Of a DNA stretch of 37,783 nucleotides, positions 1 through 17,614 are shown piece after piece. Numbering within the stretch: the stretch's first letter is position 1; every line of letters begins with the position of its first letter. The position numbers were made by a program, and so were the translations under genes. Below the pieces are notes generated by a model. That model did not search any database. It was not told the origin of the DNA and saw only the letters and a list, made by a program, of their open reading frames with translations. Origin of the DNA: Planctomycetaceae bacterium (GTDB lineage: Bacteria; Planctomycetota; Planctomycetia; Planctomycetales; Planctomycetaceae); the NCBI GenBank assembly GCA_009691905.1, contig SIAF01000006.1:1-37783 (forward strand), given 5' to 3'.

Positions 1-3000
1 TGAGGCCGCCGCCGGTGCGCAGGTGCGCGATCCGCGTGGCGTAGTCGGCGGCGACATCGGTTCTCGTCCATTCGGCCATGATCGCATCGATCGCCGGCCG
101 ATTGAGCGTTTTAGTGCTCTCGTTGAAGTACGAGAATATTCCCGAGATCAACACGTCGTCTTCGTCCCCCCCCATCAGACTGCCGACGCCGGTCCCCCCC
201 ACGAGCAGGTTCCGCCCGCCGAACCCAAACAGCGAGTCGGCGCCGGCGCCTCCGATCAGGACGTTATTGAGCAAGTTGCCTCGGAGCGTGTCGTTGAGGG
301 ACGTCCCCACGACCATCTCGAAGACGTCGCCGGCCCAGAGGGTGACGGTCAGATTGCTGTTGGCGACCTGAGCGGCCGTGCTGGCCAGATCGATCGAGAC
401 CGCCAGCGTCGTGGTCTGCGAGAAATCGAGCAGATCGACGCCACCCACCGGTCCCGGACCTTCAACGAGCGTGTCGCTTCCCAGGGCTGCATCGGCATCG
501 AAGGAATACACGTCGTCGCCGTTCCCCCCGTCGAGCGTGTCGTTGCCCGCTCCGCCCAAGAGCGTGTCGTTGCCGTCGCTGCCGGTGAGCGTGTCGTTGT
601 CGGCGTTCCCCGTGAGGACATTGGCCAGGCCATTGCCGGTCAGCGTGTCATTCAGCGAGCCACCCGTAACGTTGTCGATCACGTCGCCGGCCGACAGCAT
701 CAGCACCAGGTTGCCGTTGACGACTTGCGCGGCGATGCTCGACAGGTCGATCGTCACGCCGAGCGTCGTCGTCAGCGAGAAATCGAGCAGGTCGGTCCCG
801 CCGCTAGCCGCCTCGTTGATCGAATCGCTTCCGAGGGCCGTATCGGCATCGAACGTGTAGACATCGTTGCCATTGCCACCGACGAGCGTGTCGTTCCCCG
901 TTCCGCCGATCAGCACGTCGGCGCCGTCTGCCCCGGTGAGCGTGTCGTTACCGGCGTTCCCGGTGAGCGTGTTGGCCAGAGCGTTACCGGTGATCACGTC
1001 ATCCAGTGAGCCGCCACTCACGTTCTCGAAGACCCCGCCGTTCTCTAACGTCAGCGTCAGGTTGCTGTTGACGACCTGAGCGATGGCGGACGACAAGTCG
1101 AGGGTGATCATCGCCGTGGTCGTGGTCGAGAAGTTGAGCGTGTCGCCGCCGCCGGTCGTGCTCTCGACGAGCGTGTCGCTGCCAAGCGCCGTATCGGCGT
1201 CGAAGACATAGGCGTCGGTGCCGTCACCGCCGATGAGCGTGTCGTCCCCCGCTCCGCCGGTCAGCGTATCGTTGCCGGCGGCGCCCGTGAGCGTGTCATC
1301 CCCCGCGCCCCCCGTGAGGACATTGGCCAGCGCATTGCCGGTGAGCACGTCATTCAGCGCCCCCCCGGTCGCGTTCTCGAAAACGCCCCCTGCCGAAAGC
1401 GTTAGCGTCAAGTTGCTGTTGACGATCTGCGACGCGACGCTCGACAGATCGACCGCCACGCCGAGGTTCGTGGTCTGCGAGAAGTCGAGGAGGTCGGTCC
1501 CGGCGCCGACGGCTTCGATAACGTTATCGCTCCCAAGGGCTGAATCGGTATCGAACACGTAAACGTCGTTGCCCGTTCCGCCGGCGAGCGTGTCGTCGCC
1601 CGCTCCTCCCGTGATTGTGTTGGCCAGCGAATTGCCGGTGAGCGTGTCCCCCTGCGCCCCGCCCACGACGTTCTCGAACGTGCTCGCCGAACCGAGCGTC
1701 AACGCCAGGTTGGCGTTGACGGTTTGGACGGTCGCCACTCCCAGATTGACGCCGATGCCCAGACCGGTGGTCGCCGAGAAGTCCAGCGTGTCGGTCCCCC
1801 CGCCGCTCTCGTCCAAGGTGTCGCTTCCCAATGGGGAATCGGCGGCGAACAGATACAGGTCGTTGCCCGCCGCGCCGACGAGCGTGTCGTTGCCCGCCCC
1901 GCCGACGAGCGTGTCGTTGCCTGCGGCTGCGTTCAGCACGTCGTTGCCCCCTCCGCCGGTGAGCACGTTGGCATTCGCATTGCCGGTGATCGTATCACCC
2001 TGTGCTCCGCCTGCAGCATTCTCGAACGTGGTCGTCGAACCGAGCGTCAGCGTCAGGTTCGCATTGACGGTCTGGGCCGTCGCCACCTCCAGATTGACGC
2101 CGATGCCGAGCGTCGTGGTGGACGAGAAATCCAGCGTGTCGATCCCCCCACCACTCTCGTCCAAGGTATCGCTCCCCAGGGCCGAGTCGGCACTGAAGGC
2201 GTAGGTGTCGTTGCCCGCTCCGCCGATCAACGTGTCGTTGCCCCCCGCGCCGGCCAGCGTGTCGTTGCCGGCGTTCCCGGTGAGGAGGTTGGCCAGAGTG
2301 TTGCCGGTCAGCGTGTCGTTTAGCGATCCCCCGGTTGCGTTCTCGATGACGTTCCCCGCCAACAGCGTCAGCGTCAGGTTCGGATTCACGACCTGGGCCG
2401 TCGTCAGCCCCAGATTGACGGCGACCGCCTGAGTCGTGGTCAGGGAAAAGTCCAACGTATCGGTCCCGCCGCCGCCCTCGTCGAGCGTGTCGCTCCCCAG
2501 GGCCGAGTCGGCGTCTAAGACATACTTGTCGTTCCCGGCCCCTCCGGTGAGAACGTTCGACAGGCTATTGCCGGTGAGCGTGTCGTTCAGCGCGCCGCCG
2601 ATGACGTTCTCGAACGTGGTCGCCGAACCGAGGATGAGCTTCAGATTCGCGTTGACGGTCTGGCTCGTCGCCAGCCCCAGGTTGACCGCGACCGCCAGGC
2701 TCGTCGTGCCGGACAGGTCCAGCGTGTCGATCCCGCCGCCGGTTTCGTTCAGCGTGTCGGTCCCCAGCGCCGTAGCGGCGGCGAACGCGTAGGTGTCGTT
2801 GCCCGCCCCGCCGATCAGCGTGTCGTTGCCGGCGCCGCCGACCAGCACGTCGTCGCCTCCGCCGCCGGTCAGCGTGTTGACATTCGCATTGCCGGTAAGC
2901 GTATCACCCTGTGCTCCGCCAATGACATTCTCGAACGTGGTTGTGGAGCCGAGCGTAAGCGTCAGGTTGGCATTTACGGTCTGGGCTGTCGCCAGCCCCA

Positions 3001-6000
3001 GATTGACGGCGACCCCGATACCGGTCGTCGCCGAGAAGTCGAGCGTGTCGGTTCCCCCGCCGCTCTCGTTGAGCGTGTCGCTGCCCAGATCCACATCGGC
3101 GGCAAACGTGTACGTGTCGTTCCCCGCTCCGCCGACGAGCGTGTCATTGCCGGCTCCGCCGCTCAACAGATCGGCGGCACTCCCCCCCGTCAACGTGTCG
3201 ATGCCCGTTCCGCCCCAGGCAGCGAGCACTTTGGTGAGCGCGGCGGCATTGACCGTGTCGTCGCCGGCATGCGTGCGAACCCGCAGTCCTGCGACGTCGC
3301 CGGCGGTATACGTGTATGGCGTCCCGTTCACCGTCACGCCGATCGACCCGCTCACGCTGACGGTATCGGTGCCCGTCCCTCCCTGCACTAGCACCTGGCC
3401 TGCCGCCGCATGATAGACGCCGGTAAAGACAGCCACATTGTCCTCGTTGATGCCGCCCGGATCAGTCTCAGCGACGGCATCGGTCGGATCGGCAACGAGC
3501 AACAGGAAGTAGTCGGTATTCAGCTCTGCGGCTCCCGCGCCAGGCAGGGGGATCTGGCCGGCGCTGCTGCCGATCGTCCAGGTCTTGATGTGCGTTCCGA
3601 CCGTCAGATCAGCCGGCGCAGTGATCGCCACAGTGCCCAGTAATGCGTCGCCGTCGAACGTCTCGTCACTCGAACTATAGGCCCCCAGGTTGAAGGCGGG
3701 GGCGGCCACCCCGACGATTTGATACGTGACCGTGAGCGTGGTTTGTCCGTTTGCAATGGCCGACAACACGCGGATGTCCAATTCAACGACATCGGTCACC
3801 GTCACCGAAAGGGTCTGGACCGTCGTGCCCCCCGCTCCGTCGCTGGCCGTGACCTGCACGAGGTATACGTTGTCGGCGTTGGCGTCCGTCGGGCTCTCGT
3901 AGTTGGGCGCCGCAACGAACGTCAGCACGCCCCCGGATGTGATCGCGAACTTCGCCTGATCCGCGCCGCCGGTCAGCGAGAACGTGGGCGTCTGCGCCGG
4001 CAGATCGGCGTCGGTGGCCGTGACCGTCAGCACGCTGGTCGTGTTCTCGGGAACGCTGGGGGTGGCGGTGGAGGTGAAGACAGGGTTGTTGTCGTTGACC
4101 GACGTGACCGTCACCGAAAGGGTTTGGATTGCCGTCCCTCCCGCTCCGTCACTGGCCGTGACCTGCACGAGGTACACGTTGTCGCCGTTGGCGTCGGTCG
4201 GGCTCTCGAAATCGGGAGCGGCGAGGAACGTCAGCACGCCCCCGGATGTGATCGCGAACTTCGCCTGATCCGCGCCGCCGGTTAGCGAGAACGTGACTGT
4301 CTGTGCCGGCAGATCGGCGTCGGTGGCCGTGACCGTCAGCACGCTGGTCGTGTTCTCGGGGACGCTGGGGGTGGCGGTGGACGTGAAGACAGGGTTGTTG
4401 TCGTTGACCGACGTGACCGTCACCGAAAGGGTTTGGATTGCCGTCCCTCCCGCTCCGTCGTTGGCCGTGACCTGCACGAGGTATACGTTGTCGGCGTTGG
4501 CGTCCGTCGGGTTCTCGAAGTCCGGCGCGGCAACGAACGTCAGCACGCCCCCGGATATGATCGCGAACTTCGCCTGATCCGCGCCGCCGGTTAGCGAGAA
4601 CGTGGGCGTCTGCGCCGGCAGATCGGCGTCGGTGGCCGTGACCGTCAGCACGCTGGTCGTGTTCTCGGGGACGCTGGGGGTGGCGGTGGAGGTGAAGACC
4701 GGGGTCTGGTTCGAAAATTGGACTTTGAGCGTCGCGGCCCCCTGCGTGGACACATGGAACGTGAGTCCGCCGATGACTACGTCCGCCTGCTGAGTCCAAC
4801 CGCCACCGATGTTCACCGTGTCGTCGGCATTGCGGAACACAGTCAGCGTGTTGGAGGTCGCCGCCGCGTTCGACGGTTGCGTGACGTTGAGCACTTCCTG
4901 CAGGTTTAAGGTCAGCGTGTTGGCCCCGCTTCCGCGAATGTCGATCGTCTCGATGTTCGTGAGCGTGCTGTCGGCCAGCGTGGTGAGGTTGAGCGTCAGG
5001 CCACTGCCGTCGAGCCGTAGTGTGTCGCTGCCGTTCCCCCCGTCGATGCGGGCGAATGTCGTGGTGGAGACCGCCAGCACGTCGTCTCCCGCACCCCCGT
5101 AGAGGACGTCGGCCCCGCCGTTCCCGACGATCGTGTCGTTGCCACGCCCGCCAACCAGAACATCCACCGCCGCGCTGCCGGTCAGCGTGTCGGCATTCGT
5201 CGTCCCGACCTGCGTGGCGCTGTTCGTGAAGTTCCCGCCGAACACCACGTAGCTCTGACCCGAGTACAACCCGTTCGGATCCGCCCCGAAAGCACCGATC
5301 AGCAGGTCGGCAAAGCCGTCCCCGTTCACGTCCCCCGCTCCGCTCACCGAATTGCCGGAGTAGTCATACGCAGCCAAGCCATTGACCACGAACCCGGTCG
5401 TCCCGTCGAGCGCGAAGAGTTCGATCCGCCCGTCCGCCGCCTCTCCACCGGCCGTATCGAGCGCGGCCAGGTTCGTCTGCCCCCCGAACACCACGTAGCT
5501 TTGACCGGAACGCGTCCCGTTGGGATCCGCACCCAATGCGCCGATCAACAGGTCGGCGAAGCCGTCCCCGTTCACATCGCCCGCGCCGCTCAATGCGTAA
5601 TAGCCGGAATAGTCGAGCGAAGTAAGGCCATTGAGCACGAAGCCGGTCGTCCCATCGAGCGCTGAGAGATTGATCCGCCCGTCCGCCGCTCCCCCGCCCG
5701 CTGTATCGAGCGCGGCCAGGTTCGTCTGACCCCCAAACACCACGTAGCTCTGACCGGACTGCGACCCGTTGGGATCGGCACTCCATGCGCCGATCAGCAG
5801 ATCGTCGAAGCCGTCGCCGTTCACGTCCCCCGCTCCGCTCACCGAAAGGCCGGAGTCGTCACCCGCAGTAATGCCATTGAGCACGAAGCCGGTCGTCCCA
5901 TCGAGCGCCGAGAGATTGATCAGCCCGTCGGCCGCTCCCCCGCCCGCTGTATCGAGCGCGGCCAGGTTCGTCTGACCCCCGAACACAACGTAGCTCTGAC

Positions 6001-6420
6001 CCGAGTACGACCCGTTGGGATCGGCCCCAGGAGCGCCGATCAGCAGGTCGGCAAAGCCGTCGCCGTTCACGTCCCCCGCTCCGCTCACCGAAAGGCCGGA
6101 GTCGTCACCCGCAGTAATGCCATTGAGCACGAAGCCGGTCGTCCCGTCGAGCGCCGAGAGATTGATCCGTCCGTCCGCCGCTTCCCCGCCCGCCGTATCC
6201 AGCGCGGCCAGGTTCGCTGGTCCACCGAACACCACGTAGGTCTGACCGGAGATCGACCCGTTCGGATTGGCACCCCGTGCGCCGATCAACAGGTCGGTAA
6301 AGCCGTCCCCGTTCATGTCCCCCGCGCCGCTCACCGACCAGCCAGAGCCGTCGCCAGCAGCCAGACCATTGAGCACGAAACCGGTCGTCCCATCGAGCGC
6401 TGAGAGATTGATCCGTCCGC
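1..6420 (-). CDS. Continuation of the giant protein: FG-GAP, cadherin-like and RTX repeats (partial, off left edge)
   Basis: Open minus-strand frame from the frameshift near 6420 to the left edge, about 2140 codons without a stop where I translated it; it has no end in the window. Order: five further FG-GAP units of about 82 residues (6420-5230); a short RTX block (GGRGNDTIVGNGGADVLYGG) near 5160-5080; a linker; three nearly identical 103-residue cadherin-like repeats (VNDNNPVFTSTATPSVPENT) at about 4705-3801; a CARDB-like stretch (about 3790-3420); then many RTX nonapeptides (GGAGNDTLVGGAGNDT) down to about 180, which bind calcium in this family. The last visible part (AIDAIMAEWTRTD ... YATRIAHL) resembles a tail that often follows RTX blocks in planctomycete proteins. 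Without the deletion it would fuse to the subtilase segment, giving roughly 3000 visible residues. An annotation program might start this part at the internal ATG at 6316. Confidence 0.82.
180..3240 (-). repeat. RTX calcium-binding repeat region
   Basis: Repeated minus-strand coding for GGAGNDTL-type nonapeptides, arranged in larger modules of roughly 300-450 bp. Each module has an RTX cluster, a 'DTLDFS(A/S)TT' strand, a 'VNLGLATAQTVNANLTLTL' strand and a 'FENVIGGAQGDTLTGN' turn. Plus-strand frames here give only proline/serine-rich antisense products. Confidence 0.8.
3801..4705 (-). repeat. Three near-identical 309-bp cadherin-like coding repeats
   Basis: The string GTCACCGAAAGGGT begins at 3801, 4110 and 4419, an exact 309-bp (103-codon) period. 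The three units differ at only scattered bases, and encode PENTTSVLTVTATDADLPAQ and SVTVTSVNDNNPVFTST on the minus strand. High DNA identity suggests recent duplication or gene conversion. Confidence 0.85.
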
Positions 6421-6860
6421 GGCTTCCCCGCCCGCCGCATCCAGCGCGGCCAGGTTCGTCTGCCCCCCGAACACCACGTAGCTCTGACCGGACTGCGACC
6501 CGTTGGGATCCGCATGCGATGCACCGATCAGCAGGTCGGCGAAACCGTCCCCGTTCACGTCCCCCGCTCCGCTCACCGACTTGCCAGAGTAATCGCCCGC
6601 AGCCAGGCCGTTGAGTACGAAGCCGGTTGTTCCGTTGAGTGCCGAGAGATTCAGGCTGGCCTGCGTCCCTTCCACAGTGCCGAACACCAGATAACTTGTG
6701 CCCGCATCAGTCCCGGTGCTCGGATCCGCAAAAAGCGCCCCGATCAACAGGTCGTCCAGCCCATCGCCGTTCACGTCTCCCGCATTGGCCACCGACTGGC
6801 CCGATCGGTCACCCGCAGCACCGCCGTTGAGCGCAAAACCCGCCGTGCCGGTGCCGCCGT
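5230..6860 (-). repeat. Tandem FG-GAP-coding repeats, ~246 bp period
   Basis: The DNA string encoding DGTTGF recurs with its GGT at 5396, 5645, 5891, 6137, 6383 and 6625, giving spacings of 249, 246, 246, 246 and 242. Seven FG-GAP units are recognisable in the protein (integrin-alpha-like beta-propeller blades, DVNGDGFADLL). The 242 spacing is the unit with the 4-base deletion; the 249 spacing adds one codon and stays in frame. Confidence 0.85.
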
Positions 6861-8994
6861 TCGCGGCGAGCAGGCTGCTCAACTCGAACGCAGAAGATGA
6901 AGATGAGTGATTACCGAAATCCTTGTTGGCCAGCACATCACCCGGCAGCACGTTGAGACTGTAATAGCCCGGAGAGGCCGGTGCCGTTTGCGTCCAGCCG
7001 CTCTGCGGAATCTGTCGCACGACGTACGTGGTCTGGGGCAGACCGGCAAATGAATACGCGCCGCCGGCGGGGGTCACTTGTGACTTCTCGGCAGACGAAA
7101 TGATCAGCGACCAACTGGTGAGTGTGCCGACATCGCCCCCCTCGTCGTCGCTGAATTCCAGGATCCAGGTGCCATTCGGATTCTGGCCATCCAACTTGGA
7201 CAGCGGCTCCTCGGGACGGTAACTGCTGCCGAACGGGGCGGTTCCGGCGGTAATCGCCGTGCCGGCTTCATCGTCGAGGATCGTGTTGCTGAAGTTGTCG
7301 GCGCTGCCTCCGACGTCGGTGAATAACTCGATTCGCGTGCCCGCCGGACTGATCAGGTACACTTGAACGTCTTCGTCCCAGGTATGCGTCATGTTGAGCT
7401 TCACATTCACGTCGGTGATGACGCCGGGAACGTTGCTGACAGAGTCGGTGGAGCGCCGCGTATCGACGTCCGCGACGCTCACGGGGACATTCGTCGACGA
7501 GATCGTGGTTGTGCCCGCATCGAGGGCCCCGTTGTTGTTGCTGTCGAGGTAAACCGTCCAGCCGGAAAGCCCCGGCTCGCTGTTGTTGGCGCCGTTGCCG
7601 TTGGTGTCGTTGAACACCGTTCCGCTGATGGTGCCGGGCTTCATGGCCAGGATCGCCGTGCCCAGCGCCAGTACATCGACTCGCGGAAAGTTCAGCCCGG
7701 TGTTGGCGACGTTGTCGTTTTCATTGTCTCCGTCGTTGATGGTTGTTGCCGAATCCCTCAGCAGTTTTTCGAATTCGTCGAGCGTCAGCCGGCGCCCAAG
7801 CGTCTGGACCGCCAGTTCCTGGGCCAGTGCCGCGATCCCGGCGATGTGGGGCGCCGCCTGACTCGTGCCGTGATAGGTCACGATGCCCCCCGACTGGTTG
7901 GCGCCGGTTATGGGCGCCCCGGGCGCCATGATGTCCAGCAGGTACTGGTCGCGCTGCGAAAACGGGGTGATGCGGTCTGGTCCGGTCGTAAAGGCGGTGG
8001 ACCCGTCTCCATAGGACACGCTGCCGATATTCGAGTCATACACCGCGCCGACGGAAATGACGCTGGGGTCGGCCGCGATGACGTTCAATCCCTGCGTACT
8101 GCCGACCGAGTAGAAGGAGTTGCCGGCAGCTACGGACACCATGATGTCCAGGTTGGCCAGCGCGGCGAACTCGTCGGAATAGGGCAAATCGTTGACGTGG
8201 TAACCGACGTTTCCGTACCCCAACGACATGTTGACGCTGGCGATGTTGTACGTCGCGGCATGGGACACGACCCATTGCAGGGCTTCTTCGATATCGGCAT
8301 CGCTGGCACCGGGATTTGGGCCGTCCGGAAAGATCTTCAGGTGAATGATGCCCGCCCCTGGCGCCATACCGGTGTACGTTCCGTCGCTGGATGTCGCGAT
8401 GCTGGTCACGTTCGACCCGTGTCCATTCGTATCCGAGGCGTCCGAGTCGTTCGTGCCCGAAAAATCATAGCTGAACACGATTCGATCGGAGATGTTGTTG
8501 CTGTCATTATCCGGCCCGAAAAACGGGTGGTTGAGGTCGATGCCAGTGTCAAGCACGACGACAGCGAATCCACTGCCGTCGATTCCCGGAAATCGGGGAT
8601 CGGCGCGGAAGTCGTCGAGATTGATGAGCGGACCAGACTCGACCGTGTTGATGGAGGCGTTTCCGTCCCCCTGCTGACCACTGGCAGAGACTGCAACCGC
8701 GTCCAGGTAATTGAGCACGTCCGCGCGACCGGTCGTCGTCAATGTGCCTAGAACCGCGTCGATCTCCGCCTGAGAGATCGCTCCCGGTGCAACCGGTTGC
8801 AGTTCCGACCCTTGAAGCGGATCGGGCGCGGCGAGCATTGTCCGCGGTTCCAGAAACTCGACCTGCGTCGAAATCGCGGCGACCCAGGTCGCGGCAGCGA
8901 TCCGCAATTGCCGATGGTGCAGGTTGCGACGATTTCGCCGCACGACGCGGTAATAGCCGTTTCGCAGCTCGGTCAACCAATGTCGAATTCGCAT
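6331..8994 (-). CDS. Giant LEPR-motif subtilase/P-domain/FG-GAP surface protein, N-terminal segment (frameshifted)
   Basis: N-terminal part of a very large secreted or surface serine protease. Visible in order: basic N-terminus; LEPR-type motif VEFLEPRTML at residues 45-54, a planctomycete export/sorting-like signature; subtilase (S8) domain about 135-400 with the full triad Asp149 (VLDTGID), His192 (NGHGSN) and Ser378 (HGTSQAAP), plus Asn292 (AAGN); an SdrD_B-like segment (GTISGTVFNDTNGNG) from about 452, interrupted by a proprotein-convertase P-like domain (about 510-645), after which the second SdrD_B half resumes (AGGAYSFAGLP); then FG-GAP repeats (GAGDVNGDGFADLLIGA). The frame stops at 6331, but repeat comparison shows the true frame is lost near 6420 by a 4-base deletion, so the last ~30 residues are spurious. 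The continuation is the 1-6420 segment. A weak ribosome site (GAGGA) lies 3 bases before the ATG at 8994. The intact triad predicts an active protease if the frame is real. Confidence 0.88.
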   Translation of the reverse strand: MRIRHWLTELRNGYYRVVRRNRRNLHHRQLRIAAATWVAAISTQVEFLEPRTMLAAPDPLQGSELQPVAPGAISQAEIDAVLGTLTTTGRADVLNYLDAVAVSASGQQGDGNASINTVESGPLINLDDFRADPRFPGIDGSGFAVVVLDTGIDLNHPFFGPDNDSNNISDRIVFSYDFSGTNDSDASDTNGHGSNVTSIATSSDGTYTGMAPGAGIIHLKIFPDGPNPGASDADIEEALQWVVSHAATYNIASVNMSLGYGNVGYHVNDLPYSDEFAALANLDIMVSVAAGNSFYSVGSTQGLNVIAADPSVISVGAVYDSNIGSVSYGDGSTAFTTGPDRITPFSQRDQYLLDIMAPGAPITGANQSGGIVTYHGTSQAAPHIAGIAALAQELAVQTLGRRLTLDEFEKLLRDSATTINDGDNENDNVANTGLNFPRVDVLALGTAILAMKPGTISGTVFNDTNGNGANNSEPGLSGWTVYLDSNNNGALDAGTTTISSTNVPVSVADVDTRRSTDSVSNVPGVITDVNVKLNMTHTWDEDVQVYLISPAGTRIELFTDVGGSADNFSNTILDDEAGTAITAGTAPFGSSYRPEEPLSKLDGQNPNGTWILEFSDDEGGDVGTLTSWSLIISSAEKSQVTPAGGAYSFAGLPQTTYVVRQIPQSGWTQTAPASPGYYSLNVLPGDVLANKDFGNHSSSSSAFELSSLLAANGGTGTAGFALNGGAAGDRSGQSVANAGDVNGDGLDDLLIGALFADPSTGTDAGTSYLVFGTVEGTQASLNLSALNGTTGFVLNGLAAGDYSGKSVSGAGDVNGDGFADLLIGASHADPNGSQSGQSYVVFGGQTNLAALDAAGGEAADGSISQRSMGRPVSCSMVWLLATALAGR

Positions 8995-9205: not shown

Positions 9206-10276
9206 CTACGGACCCACGCTCAGCGTCCGCCGGATTTCATCGGTCTTGAAGCCCAGCGCCGATGGACGCCGCACGCCGGGCAGTACCACCACGTCGTACA
9301 GCTCGCGAATAACCCCTTGCAGCCACAGCCAGTGGACCAGGTCGCCGCTCTTGAGGTCGATCACGCACAGCCCGCAGTGCGCTTCGGCATCGTGTGATTT
9401 CAGGTTGTCGTCGAGGGCCAACCCCTGGAACGTGCGGTTCTCGCGGCACAGCGACAGACCCACCACCGCGTAGTCGCCGACAAACGACAGCCCCCGCAGA
9501 TAGCCGGGACAGAACGTCAGCGGCTCGAATTTTCCGGTCGTCCGGTCGACCCGCCCGAAGGAACCTGTGCCGGAATCCAGCAGCCACAACTGATCGCGGT
9601 AGATGCGCGGCGAATGTGGCATCGACAGCCCGCTGGCGATGGTCTCGTTGGTGCGCACGTCGAGCACGCAGCCGCCATCCCGCCGCCGGTCGCGCCAGCC
9701 GTCGGCCACGTCGCTCTGACTGACGGCGGTCACATACGCCGGCCGTCCGTTCTCGAGCGCCAGCCCGTTCAGGTGGCAGCGGTCTTCGGCCGCCAGCTTC
9801 GACAGGAACGGCGGCCGCCACAACGGGACGAAACTGTGCTTGTCGCTGATCGTCGCCAGACAGCCGAACAACGTGTTGACGAACACGACTTTCCCGTCGG
9901 CGTCGACCGCCACGTCGTGAATGTCGAGATCGCCGATGACGTAGCCGACCCGCGGAACGTAGACGCGATCGAACCCGTTGGCAGCCTCTCCGGGGGGGAG
10001 CGCGTTCTCGAACCGCCAGAGCTGATACAGCGACGTCATCCACAGCGTCTGCCCGTCGCCCCACAGTCCCAGGCAGCGGTTGAATGTCCGCTCGAACAGC
10101 GACAGCCGCCCGTCGGGCTGGAGGCCCGCGAGAAACAGTTTGCCCGTCTGATAGGTGGTGAATGCGAGACTGACGCGCTGTTCCGCCAGCCAGGCGGTGA
10201 ACTGGCGGGACGCCAGCACTTCCAGGAGCGGCGTGTCAGAAGATGAGGGCACCGAGGGCAAGTCGCTCGTCGTCAT
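9206..10276 (-). CDS. TIGR03032 (DUF4915) family protein
   Basis: About 356 aa from the ATG at 10276 (an in-frame ATG at 10303 would add nine residues). The sequence follows the TIGR03032 family along its length: FTTYQTGKLF near the N-terminus, GDLDIHDVAVD, FVNTLFGCLAT, WRPPFLSKLAAEDRCHLNGLA, MPHSPRIY, DSGTGSFGRVD, PGYLRGLSFVGDYAVVGLS and a C-terminal LPGVRRPSALGFKTDEIRR. The family has no established reaction; its repeated strand motifs suggest a beta-propeller-like fold (inference). No signal peptide is seen. It is divergent to the 988-aa gene, with start codons overlapping in TCATGA, so its promoter must lie inside the neighbouring gene or its real start is elsewhere. Confidence 0.85.
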   Translation of the reverse strand: MTTSDLPSVPSSSDTPLLEVLASRQFTAWLAEQRVSLAFTTYQTGKLFLAGLQPDGRLSLFERTFNRCLGLWGDGQTLWMTSLYQLWRFENALPPGEAANGFDRVYVPRVGYVIGDLDIHDVAVDADGKVVFVNTLFGCLATISDKHSFVPLWRPPFLSKLAAEDRCHLNGLALENGRPAYVTAVSQSDVADGWRDRRRDGGCVLDVRTNETIASGLSMPHSPRIYRDQLWLLDSGTGSFGRVDRTTGKFEPLTFCPGYLRGLSFVGDYAVVGLSLCRENRTFQGLALDDNLKSHDAEAHCGLCVIDLKSGDLVHWLWLQGVIRELYDVVVLPGVRRPSALGFKTDEIRRTLSVGP

Positions 10277-13241
10277 GAGACAAGCAGCCTGGCTGGTATT
10301 CAAGGTGCCCGCGACGGCCCGCGTCCCCTACAACGTCGCGGGGCTGCTCGACTGGTCGGCGCTGGAGCCCAACCTCAACCCGATCGCCGCCGTCGGCCCG
10401 AACCCCACGGCCGATCAGGTCGCCAATGTTCCCGCGATCGCACCCCCCGGCGCGCTCGAGACGGCGATCGAGTTGCCGTATCACCTGACCATCTCCCCCA
10501 ACCGCGACGCGACCTGGGACCACCGCCTGGGTCCTTTTACATCGCGCGGACGGACCGAGCTGTGGCACACGCGACTGTGGCGCAAAACCGCCGCTGGCCC
10601 GGCCGAGCCAACCCACGACGCCCCCGCCCTGCTGCGCGCGATCTGGTCGCCCGACTATAGTTCGGGCGCCTTTCCCGACCCGAAAGCCCGTGACAACGAC
10701 CTCTTCCGCACCGCGATGTCGGCCAACGACCGGCACCAGATCGTGATCCTGACGTCGGCCTTCCACGGCTACGAAGTCGAGATCAACTTCCTGGGCCTGG
10801 GCGGGCTCCACGCGCTCGCCGCGGGCCTGCTCAGCGGGGCCATCGACCGGGTGCCGCGGGGAACGTTCACGTTCACCGAAACCTACGTCCCGCAGCCGTT
10901 CGGAGCCGAGTTGCTGATGCTCTCGCCGCTGGGAGGCTGGCTCAGATCGCGCGGGCACTGGAACCCGCCCAAGCGGTCGCGGCCCATCGTCTTCCATCCC
11001 CGGCCCAACTTCAATGACCTGCTGCAGAACCTCGCCGTCATCCCGAGGATTGCCGCCGGGGGGGCCGTCGTGCCGGCGCCCGCGGCCTTCTTCGAGGAAA
11101 CGCTCAACCTCTCAGAATGGATACACGTCGCCACGCAGGGGCGCGACCATTACGTGCGAATCGTTTACGAGGGCGAGCTCTGGCCGTTCCGCCACCGTGC
11201 AGCGCTCGTCAAGGTCACCGAGCGGAAGTTCGAAGACAACGGCACGACCGTGGGCGCCTATCTGATTCAGCGCATGTTCATCATCGTGCGTGAACCCGTC
11301 AAACAATACGCCGCGTCGGCGCGCGCGACGCCGTTCCGACAGGTCCGGCTGACCACGCTCGTGACCCCCGACATTGCCGACCCGCTTTCGACCCCGACGC
11401 CGATCGCGAACACGGGGCAGACGTTCTGGGTCGAGGTCACGACCGGCCCATCTCCAATCGATCGCGCCCCCTTCATGTTCCATGCCGTGGGGACCGACGT
11501 CGCCGGACACGACGTCGATTTCACAGTCCCGCTCATGTTCGTCTCGCTCGACGACACCGACAACCACCGTCCGGCGGTCGCGCTGGGCTACAACTCCCCG
11601 GCCTTCTTCGACCGCCGCGTCGCCCTGGTGCCGGGCCAGAAGCTGGCCTTCGCCGCACCTGACCCCGCCGCGGCCACCGACAACACGCGGCTCGTCGCCC
11701 GCAAAGTGCATCTCGTGGCCGACGCCGCGGGCGGTCCTCCTCCCATGCTCGCCGCCCTTGTGCAGGTGCCGCAGGTGCAGGAACTGCTCGGCACCGACGG
11801 GGCCACCACGATCCGCCACTTCGCCGGGTACCTCTCCAGCGACTTCGATGCCGCGAGCGGCGTCTTCGCGGAGATCGCCAAAATCAACCCTGGGGCTGCC
11901 ACGGCGGCCAACCCCTTCGCGGCCGTGACCGCCGACACCCTGGGCGTGGCCTTCAGCTCCGAAAAGGCCGGGGGCTTCGCCACGCCGAACCTCGGGATCT
12001 CGAGCTTGACCCGCAAGCACGGTCCGGTCGCCGGCAAGGTCGCCGACGCTGTGGCAGACAGCTTCGACCCGTCGGCATTCTTCGGTAAGGGATTGGCCAG
12101 ACTGTTCGGCACCTTCGACCTGGCCGACCTGCTGCCGCCGGCCACGCTCGGGCAGAATGCCCCCAAAATGGTGACGACGACCAAGGACATTCCCGGCGGC
12201 AAGCAGGTGGTCACCACGCTCGACTGGAAGCCTGCGTTTCTTGAGCCCACCGGTCGGCTCGCCGCCGGCAAGGTTACCGAGATCATCAAGAATGACAAAG
12301 GAACCAGCGCCCTGGCGATCCACGGCGAAATCGTCAAGCAACTCAAGACCGGCGGCCCCCCCGACCCCGGCTCGTTCACGATGACCGGCACGCTTAACAA
12401 CTTCCAGGTCGGCGTGCTTAGTTCGGTCTATATCCACTTCTCCATGTTCTCGTTCACCGCGAAGTCGGGCCAGAAGACCGACGTGACGGTGAGCCTCGAC
12501 CCGGAGCAGCCCGTCGAGTTCAGGGGGGATCTCGCTTTCATCGAAGAGTTGCGCAAGGCGATCCCGCCCGGATTATTCGGAGACGGCCCGAGCCTCGACA
12601 TCACCCCCCAGGGAATCCGCGCGGGGTTCTCATTCGCGCTGCCGCCGGTGTCGGTGGGGGTCTTCGCGCTGAAGGATGTGAGCCTCGGCGCCGCGCTCAC
12701 GCTGCCGTTTATCAGCGGCAAGCCGGTGTTCGACTTCAACGTGTCGGAACGCCAGCATCCGTTTCTGCTGGCGGTGTCCCTCTTCGGCGGCGGCGGGTTC
12801 TTCCACCTGCAGCTCGACACGGCGGGGATCAAGCTGCTCGAGGCCGCCTTCGAATTCGGCGCGGCGGCGGCCATCGACATCGGCGTGGCCAGCGGCGAAG
12901 TCCACATCATGGCGGGCATCTACTTCGCCATGCAGCGCAAAGAGAACAGCACCGATCTGGCCTGCATCCTCTCGGGCTACCTGCGACTGGGGGGTTCGCT
13001 CAGCGTGCTCGGCCTGATCAAGGTCTCGGTCGAGTTCAACCTGAGCTTCACCTACGACAGCGTGAAGGACAAGGCCTACGGCCGCGCTACGCTGACCGTC
13101 CAGGTCGAGGTGCTGTTGTTCTCGACCTCCGTCGAGTTGACCGTCGAGCGTGCGTTCGGCGGGACGAGTGGCGACCCGACGTTCGCCGAGTTGATGGACA
13201 CCCCGGCACACTGGGGCGAATACGCACTCGCGTTTGCCTGA
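10275..13241 (+). CDS. Large protein of unknown function, 988 aa, beta-rich C-terminus
   Basis: I do not recognise a named family. Start chosen at the ATG at 10275, where MRQAAWLVFKVPATARVPYN begins a plausible folded N-terminus; an upstream ATG at 10155 would add 40 low-complexity residues lying wholly inside the TIGR03032 gene. No signal peptide or clear transmembrane helix. The N-terminal half (to about 520) is mixed, with aromatic-rich strands. The C-terminal third (about 750-970) alternates hydrophobic and polar residues and is glycine-rich (FGGGGFFHLQL near 837; FGAAAAIDIGVASGEVHIMAGIYFA; LRLGGSLSVLGLIKVSVEFNLSF; LLFSTSVELTVERAFGG), which suggests amphipathic beta strands in a barrel, solenoid or lipid-binding sheet (inference). 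The 1452-aa gene follows after 14 bp, so they are almost certainly co-transcribed. Confidence 0.8.
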   Translation: MRQAAWLVFKVPATARVPYNVAGLLDWSALEPNLNPIAAVGPNPTADQVANVPAIAPPGALETAIELPYHLTISPNRDATWDHRLGPFTSRGRTELWHTRLWRKTAAGPAEPTHDAPALLRAIWSPDYSSGAFPDPKARDNDLFRTAMSANDRHQIVILTSAFHGYEVEINFLGLGGLHALAAGLLSGAIDRVPRGTFTFTETYVPQPFGAELLMLSPLGGWLRSRGHWNPPKRSRPIVFHPRPNFNDLLQNLAVIPRIAAGGAVVPAPAAFFEETLNLSEWIHVATQGRDHYVRIVYEGELWPFRHRAALVKVTERKFEDNGTTVGAYLIQRMFIIVREPVKQYAASARATPFRQVRLTTLVTPDIADPLSTPTPIANTGQTFWVEVTTGPSPIDRAPFMFHAVGTDVAGHDVDFTVPLMFVSLDDTDNHRPAVALGYNSPAFFDRRVALVPGQKLAFAAPDPAAATDNTRLVARKVHLVADAAGGPPPMLAALVQVPQVQELLGTDGATTIRHFAGYLSSDFDAASGVFAEIAKINPGAATAANPFAAVTADTLGVAFSSEKAGGFATPNLGISSLTRKHGPVAGKVADAVADSFDPSAFFGKGLARLFGTFDLADLLPPATLGQNAPKMVTTTKDIPGGKQVVTTLDWKPAFLEPTGRLAAGKVTEIIKNDKGTSALAIHGEIVKQLKTGGPPDPGSFTMTGTLNNFQVGVLSSVYIHFSMFSFTAKSGQKTDVTVSLDPEQPVEFRGDLAFIEELRKAIPPGLFGDGPSLDITPQGIRAGFSFALPPVSVGVFALKDVSLGAALTLPFISGKPVFDFNVSERQHPFLLAVSLFGGGGFFHLQLDTAGIKLLEAAFEFGAAAAIDIGVASGEVHIMAGIYFAMQRKENSTDLACILSGYLRLGGSLSVLGLIKVSVEFNLSFTYDSVKDKAYGRATLTVQVEVLLFSTSVELTVERAFGGTSGDPTFAELMDTPAHWGEYALAFA

Positions 13242-13255
13242 TCGAAGGGCTTGTC

Positions 13256-16200
13256 ATGACCTCCGAACAAACAATTCTGTTCACGGTTCTCGCGCGGGGC
13301 GTCGCCACCGACGGCCGCGCCACCGCCGTTTCCGTCTATGTCTCCCCCAGGCTCCGAGGAGCCTCGGCGCTGGGTTCCTTCCCTGATTGGCTGCACTGGA
13401 CCCGGCGCCTTCACGACCACGGCCTCGTGCTCGAGTTCGCAAGCGGCGGCGCGACGACGAAAGTCGCCGTCGACAAGTCCCCGCTTCGCCCCGACCTCTG
13501 GGAGCAGATCTTCCACCAAGACACGCTGGTCCGCTCCCACGCCTTCAACGACTACACCGACCGCGGCATCCTCTCGTACCCCGTCCGCCAGGCCCTCAGC
13601 GTCCTGAAGACGATTTACCAGGAAGCCGCAGTGACCCTCGCGCTTCCCGACCCTGAAGGGTCTTCCCGCAACCGCGACGGCGGCAACCGCGACACGCTCC
13701 GCAGACTGATCGACGGCCTGGACGTCCACTGGAACGGCGACCGCGCCAAAAGCTGGCGCGACGCCGTCCGCCAGTCGTACCGCTCGATGCGCGCCAACCA
13801 GGCGCAGCAGGCCCTCTCTGGCCCGCTCGATGCCGAGGGGCTGATCGAAGCCAGCCCCGATCCGGCAGCGTTCCAGAAGGTCGCCGTGCCGTTCGCCGTC
13901 TTCCACCATATGCCAACCCCTCCGCTCGACGACCTGGTGATCGACACCGCCACGGTGCTCGATTTCCACCAGGCCCTGAGTGCCCTGAACGCCTATCCCG
14001 CTCTGCTTCGCGCCCTGGGCCTTGTGTTCGACATCGCCCTCCCCGAGGGCTTCCTGAAGCCCACGCCGCTCGGCCAGATCGGCACGGTCTCGGTCGTCCC
14101 GACGGGCTTCTCCTGGGAGACGCCGACAAAAACCCCCGCGCTCACGACCGGCTATATCAACTACACATCCGGCCAGGCTCATCTCTTCGGCAACGCGCCG
14201 CGGTCGCTTGCCGATCCCTCGGCGCCGACGTCGGTGATCGGCCTGCTCGATCTCGACGGCACCCGGTTCGGGCTCGCGCAGGTCGATGTCGACGGCGGGA
14301 TGCACAAGGCGATCATGCTCGCCGAGACACTGAACAACCCCGACCCCGCACGCAACCTCGACCCCGACGCCCAGCCCGAAGACGCGGCCCACCCCGAGGT
14401 CTTCGACCCCGAGGCAACCCTTCCCTCCCTCCGGTCGGGGGGCCTGTCGCTGTACGCCGACGCCCGCGGCTTGCAGCTTCTCGACATGCTTTCGCAGTCG
14501 AAGACGTTCAACAACGCCGTCGAGTCGGGGGGCGTTCAGCACCGGCCGTTTTTCGCCGAAGACCTCGTGCGCGGCTTCCGGCTCGATGTCTGGGATTCGC
14601 GGACCGGCCACTGGCATTCCCTGCATCGTCGCGACGGTGACTACCTCATCGGTGAACTGCCGTTCCACACGACCGACGAAGAGGGCTTCATTCAGACCGC
14701 CGTCACCCAGCCCGCTAAAGGGGCGTCGCCCGAGACGAACGACCTGTACATCCACGAGGCCGTCGCCCGCTGGGCGGGCTGGAGCCTGAGCGTCAGCCGT
14801 CCTGGGAAGCACCTCAGCCGCCATGCCGATCCTGATAAGGCCGTTCCCCCAAACGCCGCCGATCCCGACTTCCTTGAAGACCAGCCCGACACCCCCTTCA
14901 AGATGACCGTCGATTACCAGGTCGTCGCCGGCAGCCTCCCCCGGCTCAAGTTCGGCGCGCGCTACCGCATTCGTGCCCGCGCCGTCGACCTCGCGGGCAA
15001 CAGCCTGTTGGTTGACGACGCGATCGCCGATCGCCTCGCGCGGCTTTTCGCTCTTCCCCGTGACCCCGAGGGGTTCACTTATCTTCGCTACGAGCCTGTC
15101 GGGGCGCCGCTGCTGATCCTTTGCGACCCGCGCGGCGTCACCGATCCCGGCTCGGCCCTCGACCGCCTGGTGATCCGCACGTTTAACGCCGCTCCCGATC
15201 AGGACGCTGCCGCGGCCGACCAGGGCGCCGGCGAGCGGCACCTCGTCCCCCCGCGCACCAGCGTCGAGATGGCAGAGCGACTGGGGATGTTCGACGATGC
15301 CGCCGGCAAGCTCAAGAGTGACGCCGCGACCTGGCAGCTCATCGGCCAGCGCGACGCCGGAAAAATCCCGTCGGCTTCGTTGACGATCGCCGGCATGACC
15401 GACGACTACCCCGTTGTCTCCGACGATCGCATCGACGAACTGCCTTATCTGCCCGACCCCCTCTCGCGCGGCGCGGCGATCCGCGACCTGCCCGGCGCGC
15501 TCGTCGGATCGATCGGCCAGGTGCGCCCCGGTGCGGGTGCGTCGGGACCGATCACGTATGTCCCCCTGAGCGACCCCAACCCGAGGCCCGGCTCGGCCAC
15601 GCTGATCAGTTTCGGCGGCGAGGCCGACTGGCAGGGGACGGTGGGCTTCCGTCTTGCGCTGGAAGAGCCTCCGCCAGGCCCAATCGAACCTGCACCGACC
15701 TGGGATCCCGCGGCGCGGGTGCTCACGGTGTTCCTGGCGAAGGGGCAAACCAGGGTCGTCCCGGTCACCAGCTATATGACTCCCGAGGACCTCAACCTGA
15801 TGGGGGTCTGGCAATGGCTCAGGGGATTTGTCGAACGGATCACCGTGACCAACCCGCGCCCCGAATACCTGGCGCCCGGGCAGAGCGTCGATCGACTCGC
15901 GCACGTCCTGCAGCGCGCGGTCGAAGGGGGGCACTGGATGCTCACGCCGCCCAGATTAGTCACCCTGGTGCATGCCCTGCAGCAGCCGCTGGGGCGCCCC
16001 GAGTTTTGCGCGCTGCGCGTGCTGCACGAGGTGAAGCGCGAGCAGGGCAACCCCCCGCTGCAGTCCGAATCTGTGACAGACGTCGCCGACCCGAACCAGC
16101 TTGCACCGATCGTCGCCCTGCGCCGGCCGGGCGCCACCGATGCCTATCTCACAGGCGCCCTGAAAATCCACGGCGCTTCCACCGCCAAGGTCGATCTGTT

Positions 16201-17614
16201 TGCGTTGTGGGTCGACCCGGTCGACGACCTGTCGGCTCCCGGCCCGACCTCCATCAGCCGAACCGCTCATGTCGACGAGATCCCCCTGCCTGATCTCCGC
16301 GAGGCGATCCTGCTTGCGCCCGGAACCGACCGCCGGTCGGTCGGCCTGTACGACCCCCAGCACGACCAGATCGCGTTTATCCGCTCAGGCGACCGCTGGG
16401 GCTCGCCCGACGAGAATCAGTTCGCGTTTTTTGCCGACGCCGCGCCCAGGCACCTGCTGGGAGACGCGAAACACCATCGCGTGACCTATTCGGCCGTCGC
16501 CGCTTCGCGTTACCGCGAGTATTTCCCCCCCGACGTGCCGAACGGGTTCACCCGCGAGAGTCACCCCGTGGTGGTGGGCGTCCCCGCCTCGATTCGCCCG
16601 CTCGCCCCCGACGTGGCGTTCGTGGTTCCCACGTTCGGCTGGCAGCGACAGACCGACACCAACCTGAAGCGAAGCATCCGTTTCGGCGGCGGTTTGCGGG
16701 TTTACCTCAGGCGTCCCTGGTTCTCGTCGGGAGAAGGCGAATTGCTCGGCGTCGCCCTCTGGAGCGACACCAACGGCAACCTCACCAATTTCAACCGCGA
16801 CAAGTTCAAGCCGTTCATCACCCAATGGGGCATGGACCCCATCTGGCAGACTGCCCCGCTGGGGTTCGTCCCGACCACCTCGGCCTTCCCCGACCGGGTC
16901 GCGATGGACTGCCCGGTGAGCCTCGACGAGCGGACGGCCCGGGCACCCGATGGGTCGCCCGGCAGGGTTGACGTCGTCGGGTTTCCCGCCGAGTTCGACC
17001 CCGAGCGCAAGCTGTGGTTCGCCGACCTGACCATCGATACTCCGGGCGAGACGTATGCCCCATTCGTGCGGCTGGCGCTGGTGCGTTACCAACCGCACGC
17101 CCTGGCCGATTCGAAGGTCTCGCGCGTGGTGCTGGCCGACTTCGCCCAGTTGACCCCCGACCGCACCTTGACCATCACCGCCGACCCGCATCACCCCCGA
17201 GCCCTGCGCGTGGCTGTCTCGGGCGTGGCGCCACGGGGCCCGCAGGCCGTGTTCCGCGGTTCCCGGCGATTGCACGGCAACATCGAGCGACCGACGCAGG
17301 TCCGCGTCCGCGTTCAGCGTCGCGACCCGGTGCTCGACTCCGACCTCGCCTGGTCTGATGTCGGGACCGACGTCGCCGCCATCAACGCGTCGCACGACGG
17401 TCCCACGCCGCTTGACCCCGATCTGGCCCTCTGGTCGGGAACGGTCAGGTTCGTGAAGGTTCCCGAGCCTGGCGAGTTTCGCCTGCTCGTCGAGGAATTC
17501 GAATTCATCTCGGCGAACTACAACCTGGTGCAGGACGACGTCATCAAGCACCCGAGCCGCCTGATCTACGCCGAGTCCATCGTCCTCGACACCGCCCTGG
17601 TTGGCGGCGTCTGA
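13256..17614 (+). CDS. Very large protein of unknown function, 1452 aa
   Basis: No family recognised. The ATG at 13256 has a GAAGGG ribosome site about 7 bases upstream. N-terminus LFTVLARGVATDGRATAVSV lacks a signal peptide. Visible landmarks: SFPDWLHWTRRL (about 40-52); a stretch around 569-583 (RYRIRARAVDLAGNS) like the core strand of bacterial Ig-like folds; a second beta-rich half with FGGEADWQGTVGFRLALEE (about 785), FKPFITQWGMDPIWQ (about 1185) and a C-terminus GEFRLLVEEFEFI ... PSRLIYAESIVLD. The gene has many C-ending codons and long stop-free antisense frames caused by that bias. Close coupling to the 988-aa gene suggests the two products act together, possibly as subunits of one large assembly. 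I cannot assign a function. Confidence 0.82.
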   Translation: MTSEQTILFTVLARGVATDGRATAVSVYVSPRLRGASALGSFPDWLHWTRRLHDHGLVLEFASGGATTKVAVDKSPLRPDLWEQIFHQDTLVRSHAFNDYTDRGILSYPVRQALSVLKTIYQEAAVTLALPDPEGSSRNRDGGNRDTLRRLIDGLDVHWNGDRAKSWRDAVRQSYRSMRANQAQQALSGPLDAEGLIEASPDPAAFQKVAVPFAVFHHMPTPPLDDLVIDTATVLDFHQALSALNAYPALLRALGLVFDIALPEGFLKPTPLGQIGTVSVVPTGFSWETPTKTPALTTGYINYTSGQAHLFGNAPRSLADPSAPTSVIGLLDLDGTRFGLAQVDVDGGMHKAIMLAETLNNPDPARNLDPDAQPEDAAHPEVFDPEATLPSLRSGGLSLYADARGLQLLDMLSQSKTFNNAVESGGVQHRPFFAEDLVRGFRLDVWDSRTGHWHSLHRRDGDYLIGELPFHTTDEEGFIQTAVTQPAKGASPETNDLYIHEAVARWAGWSLSVSRPGKHLSRHADPDKAVPPNAADPDFLEDQPDTPFKMTVDYQVVAGSLPRLKFGARYRIRARAVDLAGNSLLVDDAIADRLARLFALPRDPEGFTYLRYEPVGAPLLILCDPRGVTDPGSALDRLVIRTFNAAPDQDAAAADQGAGERHLVPPRTSVEMAERLGMFDDAAGKLKSDAATWQLIGQRDAGKIPSASLTIAGMTDDYPVVSDDRIDELPYLPDPLSRGAAIRDLPGALVGSIGQVRPGAGASGPITYVPLSDPNPRPGSATLISFGGEADWQGTVGFRLALEEPPPGPIEPAPTWDPAARVLTVFLAKGQTRVVPVTSYMTPEDLNLMGVWQWLRGFVERITVTNPRPEYLAPGQSVDRLAHVLQRAVEGGHWMLTPPRLVTLVHALQQPLGRPEFCALRVLHEVKREQGNPPLQSESVTDVADPNQLAPIVALRRPGATDAYLTGALKIHGASTAKVDLFALWVDPVDDLSAPGPTSISRTAHVDEIPLPDLREAILLAPGTDRRSVGLYDPQHDQIAFIRSGDRWGSPDENQFAFFADAAPRHLLGDAKHHRVTYSAVAASRYREYFPPDVPNGFTRESHPVVVGVPASIRPLAPDVAFVVPTFGWQRQTDTNLKRSIRFGGGLRVYLRRPWFSSGEGELLGVALWSDTNGNLTNFNRDKFKPFITQWGMDPIWQTAPLGFVPTTSAFPDRVAMDCPVSLDERTARAPDGSPGRVDVVGFPAEFDPERKLWFADLTIDTPGETYAPFVRLALVRYQPHALADSKVSRVVLADFAQLTPDRTLTITADPHHPRALRVAVSGVAPRGPQAVFRGSRRLHGNIERPTQVRVRVQRRDPVLDSDLAWSDVGTDVAAINASHDGPTPLDPDLALWSGTVRFVKVPEPGEFRLLVEEFEFISANYNLVQDDVIKHPSRLIYAESIVLDTALVGGV

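Follow-up and report, generated by a model that had tools for sequence, protein, structure and literature searches.

Hitchhiker export through the Tat translocase is known from the Escherichia coli complexes PaoABC and HybO-HybC, in which one subunit bears the Tat signal and its partner travels without one (PMC4273604). The gene pair described here, which we call A and B, resembles these systems in that about 12 of its relatives have a Tat-type motif at the start of A and no signal on B, and in that the A and B genes are tightly adjacent. Unlike PaoABC, a cofactor enzyme of 135 kDa, A and B look beta-rich and non-enzymatic, sum to about 260-520 kDa and are sometimes linked to a tatA gene. Their complex and its Tat dependence are predictions.

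Two other groups of proteins invite comparison through their folds. Like the Ig/Fn3 arrays of alpha-2-macroglobulin, cytokine receptors and ICAM, B is predicted as a succession of beta-sandwich domains. However, B has no sequence match to Ig/Fn3-array proteins (TM-scores are 0.05-0.3), none of its three cysteines lies in a thioester CxEQ motif, and no counterpart of its conserved C-terminal module was found. The last third of A is predicted to contain a run of long antiparallel strands like that of the outer-membrane beta-barrels LptD and SlpA. Yet A resembles these barrels at a TM-score of about 0.1, has no Sec signal (its relatives have Tat signals) and belongs to no recognised barrel family.

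The A and B genes

The pair lies in a stretch of Planctomycetaceae DNA of 37,783 nucleotides, which is referred to here as the window. Its features are as follows.

10265..10292, strand not applicable: probable junction between the TIGR03032 gene and A, with little room for two divergent promoters
10275..13241, plus strand: protein A, 988 aa, ATG start; beta-rich, unnamed
12690..13238, plus strand: A residues ~806-988, a glycine-rich long-strand meander and the best-conserved part of A
13256..17614, plus strand: protein B, 1452 aa, ATG start; multi-domain, Ig/Fn3-like, unnamed
14960..15004, plus strand: B residues ~569-583, RYRIRARAVDLAGNS, a strand flagged in an earlier note on this DNA and conserved in B homologues
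16712..16846, plus strand: B residues ~1153-1197, with the invariant core RPWFSSGEGELLGV ... TQWGMDPIW

The two plus-strand frames of 988 and 1452 aa that the earlier note had reported are present at these coordinates, with 14 bp between the A stop and the B start. Judging by the 16-17 homologues across phyla that align over nearly the full length, both are real genes. Each is present in a single copy in the host genome, whose DUF1549, DUF1553 and DUF1501 genes suggest a planctomycete. The invariant core of B lies in a C-terminal region shared with distant rhizobial B proteins, and the invariant residues of this module read RPWxxSGxGE...TQWGMDPIW...RxLWxxD...YxPFxRxALxRxQP.

Neither protein matched Pfam, NCBIfam or PHROGs, even at E<=1, nor any PADLOC model or PDB chain in a profile sequence search. 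Membership of a known family is excluded on these grounds, in agreement with the earlier note, which had recognised none. The Ig, Big and Fn3 models of Pfam have no match in B (E<=1), and the Pfam A2M/MG domain gave none either (E<=1). Profile comparison with hhalign was empty: A and B are not paralogues, and neither has internal repeats that this method can detect. A phage origin of the pair was likewise rejected because B is absent from phage records. The pair is present, with A ahead of B, on one putatively viral contig of IMG/VR, and Foldseek against viral models returned only generic tail, Ig and Big-1 proteins. The literature searched supplied background on Tat; the A-B family, having no name, may have been described in other wording. 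As far as the searched libraries go, A and B fit no named family.

Elsewhere in the window, a minus-strand ORF with subtilase S8, P-domain and FG-GAP regions (6331-8994) overlaps by 46 bp a giant minus-strand FG-GAP/cadherin/RTX ORF (2-6376) that extends past the window edge. A frameshift has probably split what was a single, very large secreted protein into these two ORFs. Positions 31465-33912 encode an 815-aa VIT and VWA domain protein of the inter-alpha-trypsin type.

Recurrence and neighbours of the pair

A scan of genome contigs for B identified 17 loci in Acidobacteria, a Deltaproteobacterium, Rhodoblastus, Bradyrhizobium, a Gammaproteobacterium, Chloroflexi, Symbiobacteriaceae (a Firmicute), Rhodothermia, Bacteroidetes, Ignavibacteria, Desulforhopalus and others. 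A lies ahead of B at all 15 loci with sequence upstream of B; the remaining two start inside B. Six plasmid records show the same order, with A split in one of them (L022); the replicons are those of Cupriavidus metallidurans CH34, Rhizobium, Streptomyces and Diaphorobacter. Four distant pairs are on plasmids of S. meliloti, R. ruizarguesonis, Ruegeria and A. vitis. Among the 22 relatives compared, A is followed directly by B in 21, at a spacing of -8 to +42 bp, the exception being the split A of L022. Overall, the pair is carried by Acidobacteria, Chloroflexi, Firmicutes, Actinobacteria, Bacteroidota, Desulfobacterota and Proteobacteria, with some copies borne on plasmids.

The distance matrices of A and B agree closely over 21 loci (Mantel r 0.944, a value that none of 10,000 permutations reached), and phyla are interleaved in both trees. 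B is present in one of 392 sampled genomes of the host phylum, leaving 391 without it, and in one of 99 in a sample with relatives of the host, where the 98 relatives have none. The paired recurrence, the matching matrices, the phylum-mixing trees and the absence of B from relatives lead us to regard A-B, on the evidence of these comparisons, as a rare cassette that is horizontally transferred and kept together. The view of the earlier note that the genes belong together is thus upheld by their conserved order and spacing, matching distances and scatter across phyla; neither a confident family match nor a loss of the conserved pairing was found. Rhizobial plasmids at L037, L041 and L042 carry B fragments or broken copies, and judging by these the cassette seems often to be lost after acquisition.

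The divergent neighbour of A (9206-10303) is a TIGR03032/DUF4915 gene (E 1e-147), as the earlier note had named it. The link between this gene and the pair did not survive comparison. TIGR03032 is beside the pair in none of the genome-contig relatives examined and is common in the host family without it (24 of 59 genomes, versus one in 99 for B); a functional link was rejected. Its position here is incidental to A-B.

Conserved partner genes were found only in tatA (see below) and in the Rhodothermia/Ignavibacteria. The nearest neighbours otherwise vary by locus and include M16 peptidases, an RND pump, MFS, a P-type ATPase, a polysaccharide deacetylase and patatin, among others. Two extra protein families without a Pfam match are conserved alongside A-B at three Rhodothermia/Ignavibacteria loci (L014, L015 and L019). 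Members of one are 640-700 aa long, start with a signal peptide and, like outer-membrane barrels, end in RRW/KSW; the other is predicted to be secreted and beta-rich. We read both as predicted exported proteins, one of them resembling an outer-membrane barrel.

L014, 14542-17188: predicted exported families beside the pair
L019, 1069-4191: the same
L015, 813-4854 and 14434-16533: the same

On an Agrobacterium vitis plasmid (L045/L046), a distant A-B pair adjoins dpdE-dpdH (dpd, 7-deazapurine DNA modification).

The copy in the window

The window A lacks a domain of ~105 aa (motif RPDDLL...PQxIAEQ) that is present at the N-terminus of all other complete copies of the protein, and a search for this domain elsewhere in the host genome found nothing convincing. 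Homology of the divergent gene to a TIGR03032 family member ends at ~10264 and homology of A begins at ~10293, a gap of ~28 bp; it looks as if a junction had removed the beginning of the A gene. Upstream of its ATG, the reading frame is open as far as a GTG at 10155. The window A is probably 5'-truncated. Of the two giant genes announced in the earlier note, both ORFs therefore exist, but A is probably not full length.

The third-position GC content (GC3) of A (0.87) and B (0.85) compares with 0.726 +/- 0.054 and a maximum of 0.82 in 52 sampled host ORFs. A, B, the TIGR03032 gene and the RTX gene, at 0.84-0.87, are all above every one of these ORFs. The block is therefore foreign, or the contig is chimeric. 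The window copy may have been acquired horizontally, with A also truncated, and may be degenerate. We give an even chance to the view that this copy is either a degenerate passenger or a chimera produced by assembly, and that nothing functional is made from it, the start of A having been lost when the block joined TIGR03032. This view concerns the window copy only and is compatible with the explanation of the family that we prefer below. It draws on the loss of the N-terminal domain, unique to the window among complete copies, on the ~28 bp that separate the conserved parts of A and TIGR03032, on the outlying GC3, on the absence of B from all sampled relatives and on the origin of the contig from a 490-contig draft genome. 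Against it, both long frames are intact, B is full length and the core of A is well conserved.

Tat signals, predicted folds and a proposed assembly

A Tat-type signal opens A in about 12 relatives and B in none; the N-termini of the B homologues were read and have no signal peptide in any case. Signals were called by regular expression and by eye, as a motif plus a hydrophobic stretch. L012, L013, L014, L015, L016, L017 and L023 (Streptomyces) carry the S/T-R-R-x-hydrophobic motif, with a hydrophobic stretch after it, near the beginning of A, and the same motif is found in A of S. meliloti, R. ruizarguesonis, Ruegeria, A. vitis and the R. phaseoli locus. The motif is present in 6 of 21 real A N-termini versus 0.6% of shuffled ones, a count that misses L013 because the start assigned to its ORF lies too far upstream. 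The statement in the earlier note that the proteins have no signal peptide is correct for the window and fails for the family. Some A proteins carry an (R)LNLxxLR-like motif at the extreme N-terminus (L010, L011, L012, L014 and L015). It precedes the Tat motif by ~20-30 residues, is retained in relatives that lack the Tat part, and is possibly a chaperone or partner site.

Three loci in two unrelated lineages have a tatA gene 12-49 bp past B.

L012, 13895-14080: tatA of Symbiobacteriaceae, 12 bp after the B stop; Pfam TatA_B_E PF02416, E 6e-20, canonical
L039, 22637-22804: tatA on S. meliloti plasmid pC, 49 bp after B; E 2e-9, short
L041, 17251-17388: tatA of Ensifer, 20 bp after a degraded B; short

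The Tat motifs on A, the lack of a signal on B and the tatA genes behind B support export of A by Tat and make B a candidate hitchhiker, as in PaoABC. The earlier note had held that no function can be read from sequence alone; the Tat signals of relatives and the linked tatA genes provide a functional hint. The Tat signal is absent from the window A and from its whole clade, and no signal is recognisable in A of the soil acidobacterial/Bradyrhizobium clade or of Cupriavidus/Diaphorobacter. A Tat signal is missing from about half of the A proteins, and the pair must therefore also be able to work without Tat. In the window clade, A is without the Tat signal and ~450 N-terminal residues, which suggests that the pair stays inside or exits another way.

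AlphaFold2 and Foldseek analyses of homologues agree with the Ig-like look of B and the alternating strands in the last third of A noticed in the earlier note. The model of L003, an A homologue of 1086 aa with 58-61% identity to the window A (pLDDT 72.5, pTM 0.59), is beta-rich, and its last 300 residues are long antiparallel strands. A is thus predicted to end in a long beta-meander. Foldseek finds a weak likeness of this model to membrane barrels and lipid-transfer sheets (TM <= 0.26). For a B homologue (L011, first 1200 aa; pLDDT 74.4, pTM 0.55), the model consists of successive beta-sandwiches, with Ig/macroglobulin-like arrays as the best, if weak, matches (E about 1e-6, TM <= 0.3). In the models, B resembles a chain of Ig-like domains; at TM-scores of about 0.1-0.3, the matches of both proteins indicate a fold class and not a family. 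Ig-like arrays are, as a rule, exported proteins.

Our preferred explanation, to which we grant a little under an even chance, is that A and B are one undescribed exported assembly, ancestrally Tat-dependent and structural or adhesive in nature, encoded by a horizontally moving two-gene cassette. A and B would fold and associate in the cytoplasm, and the signal on A would direct the complex, already folded, to the Tat translocase, B passing through as a signal-less hitchhiker. Outside the cytoplasmic membrane, the complex would form a structural or adhesive assembly in which the terminal beta-meander of A anchors or polymerises and B contributes its array of Ig-like domains. Export by Tat would be the ancestral state, the window copy being signal-less and probably truncated. 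We infer from the genes that A and B build one assembly, as the earlier note had proposed, and from analogy that its role is structural or adhesive. The small number of loci with a linked tatA, three in all, counts against the explanation.

Alternatively, A-B could be a cytoplasmic assembly (a scaffold or storage-like particle) and the Tat versions a derived branch recruited to export. The signal-less A proteins of the window, the soil acidobacterial/Bradyrhizobium clade and Cupriavidus/Diaphorobacter are consistent with this view. We consider it unlikely because Tat signals are on several deep branches and tatA in two lineages, for which loss is a better fit than repeated gain, and because Ig-like arrays usually leave the cytoplasm. 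The pair might also be an exported two-component weapon or effector, in which A uses its long beta-hairpins to insert into a membrane or form a pore in it while B binds the target. This would suit its sporadic spread by horizontal transfer, its presence on plasmids and the long alternating strands in the last third of A, with their weak Foldseek similarity to membrane barrels. However, no immunity-like or toxin-like partner gene recurs, PADLOC is empty, no known toxin motif is present and fold matches stay at TM <= 0.26, all of which make a weapon quite improbable. Least probable is that A, B or both are enzymes of very large size whose active site has escaped recognition: B does have invariant polar residues (H906, E1162, D1194 and D1257) besides structural ones, but Gly, Pro, Trp, Phe and Arg make up most of the invariant columns, searches at E<=1 gave no enzyme family and no enzymatic neighbour recurs.

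The preferred explanation of an exported assembly has a bearing on the capacity of Tat. Computed masses are 158 kDa for A and 141 kDa for B in L012 (~299 kDa), and 331 and 192 kDa for the larger, distant A' and B' of S. meliloti, whose A' has 3052 aa (3107 aa in R. ruizarguesonis). The cargo that Tat handles is put at about 150 kDa in a review (PMC6708511), next to which export of the L012 complex or of the S. meliloti A' would be exceptional. A tentative reading, which we hold to be less likely than not, is that non-enzymatic A-B assemblies of 260-520 kDa are exported folded via Tat, with B carried on A and, in some lineages, with the help of a TatA from the same operon. The hitchhiker route itself is already known; the A-B form of it is unusual. 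If this reading is true, such assemblies would lie well beyond the reported Tat cargo size, form a new class of exported assembly and bear on the open question of the largest folded complex that Tat can pass. With its 331 kDa, its Tat signal and an adjacent tatA, the S. meliloti A' lends itself to testing Tat cargo size. The family spans about eight phyla and stays paired through horizontal transfer, which suggests that it probably does something specific.
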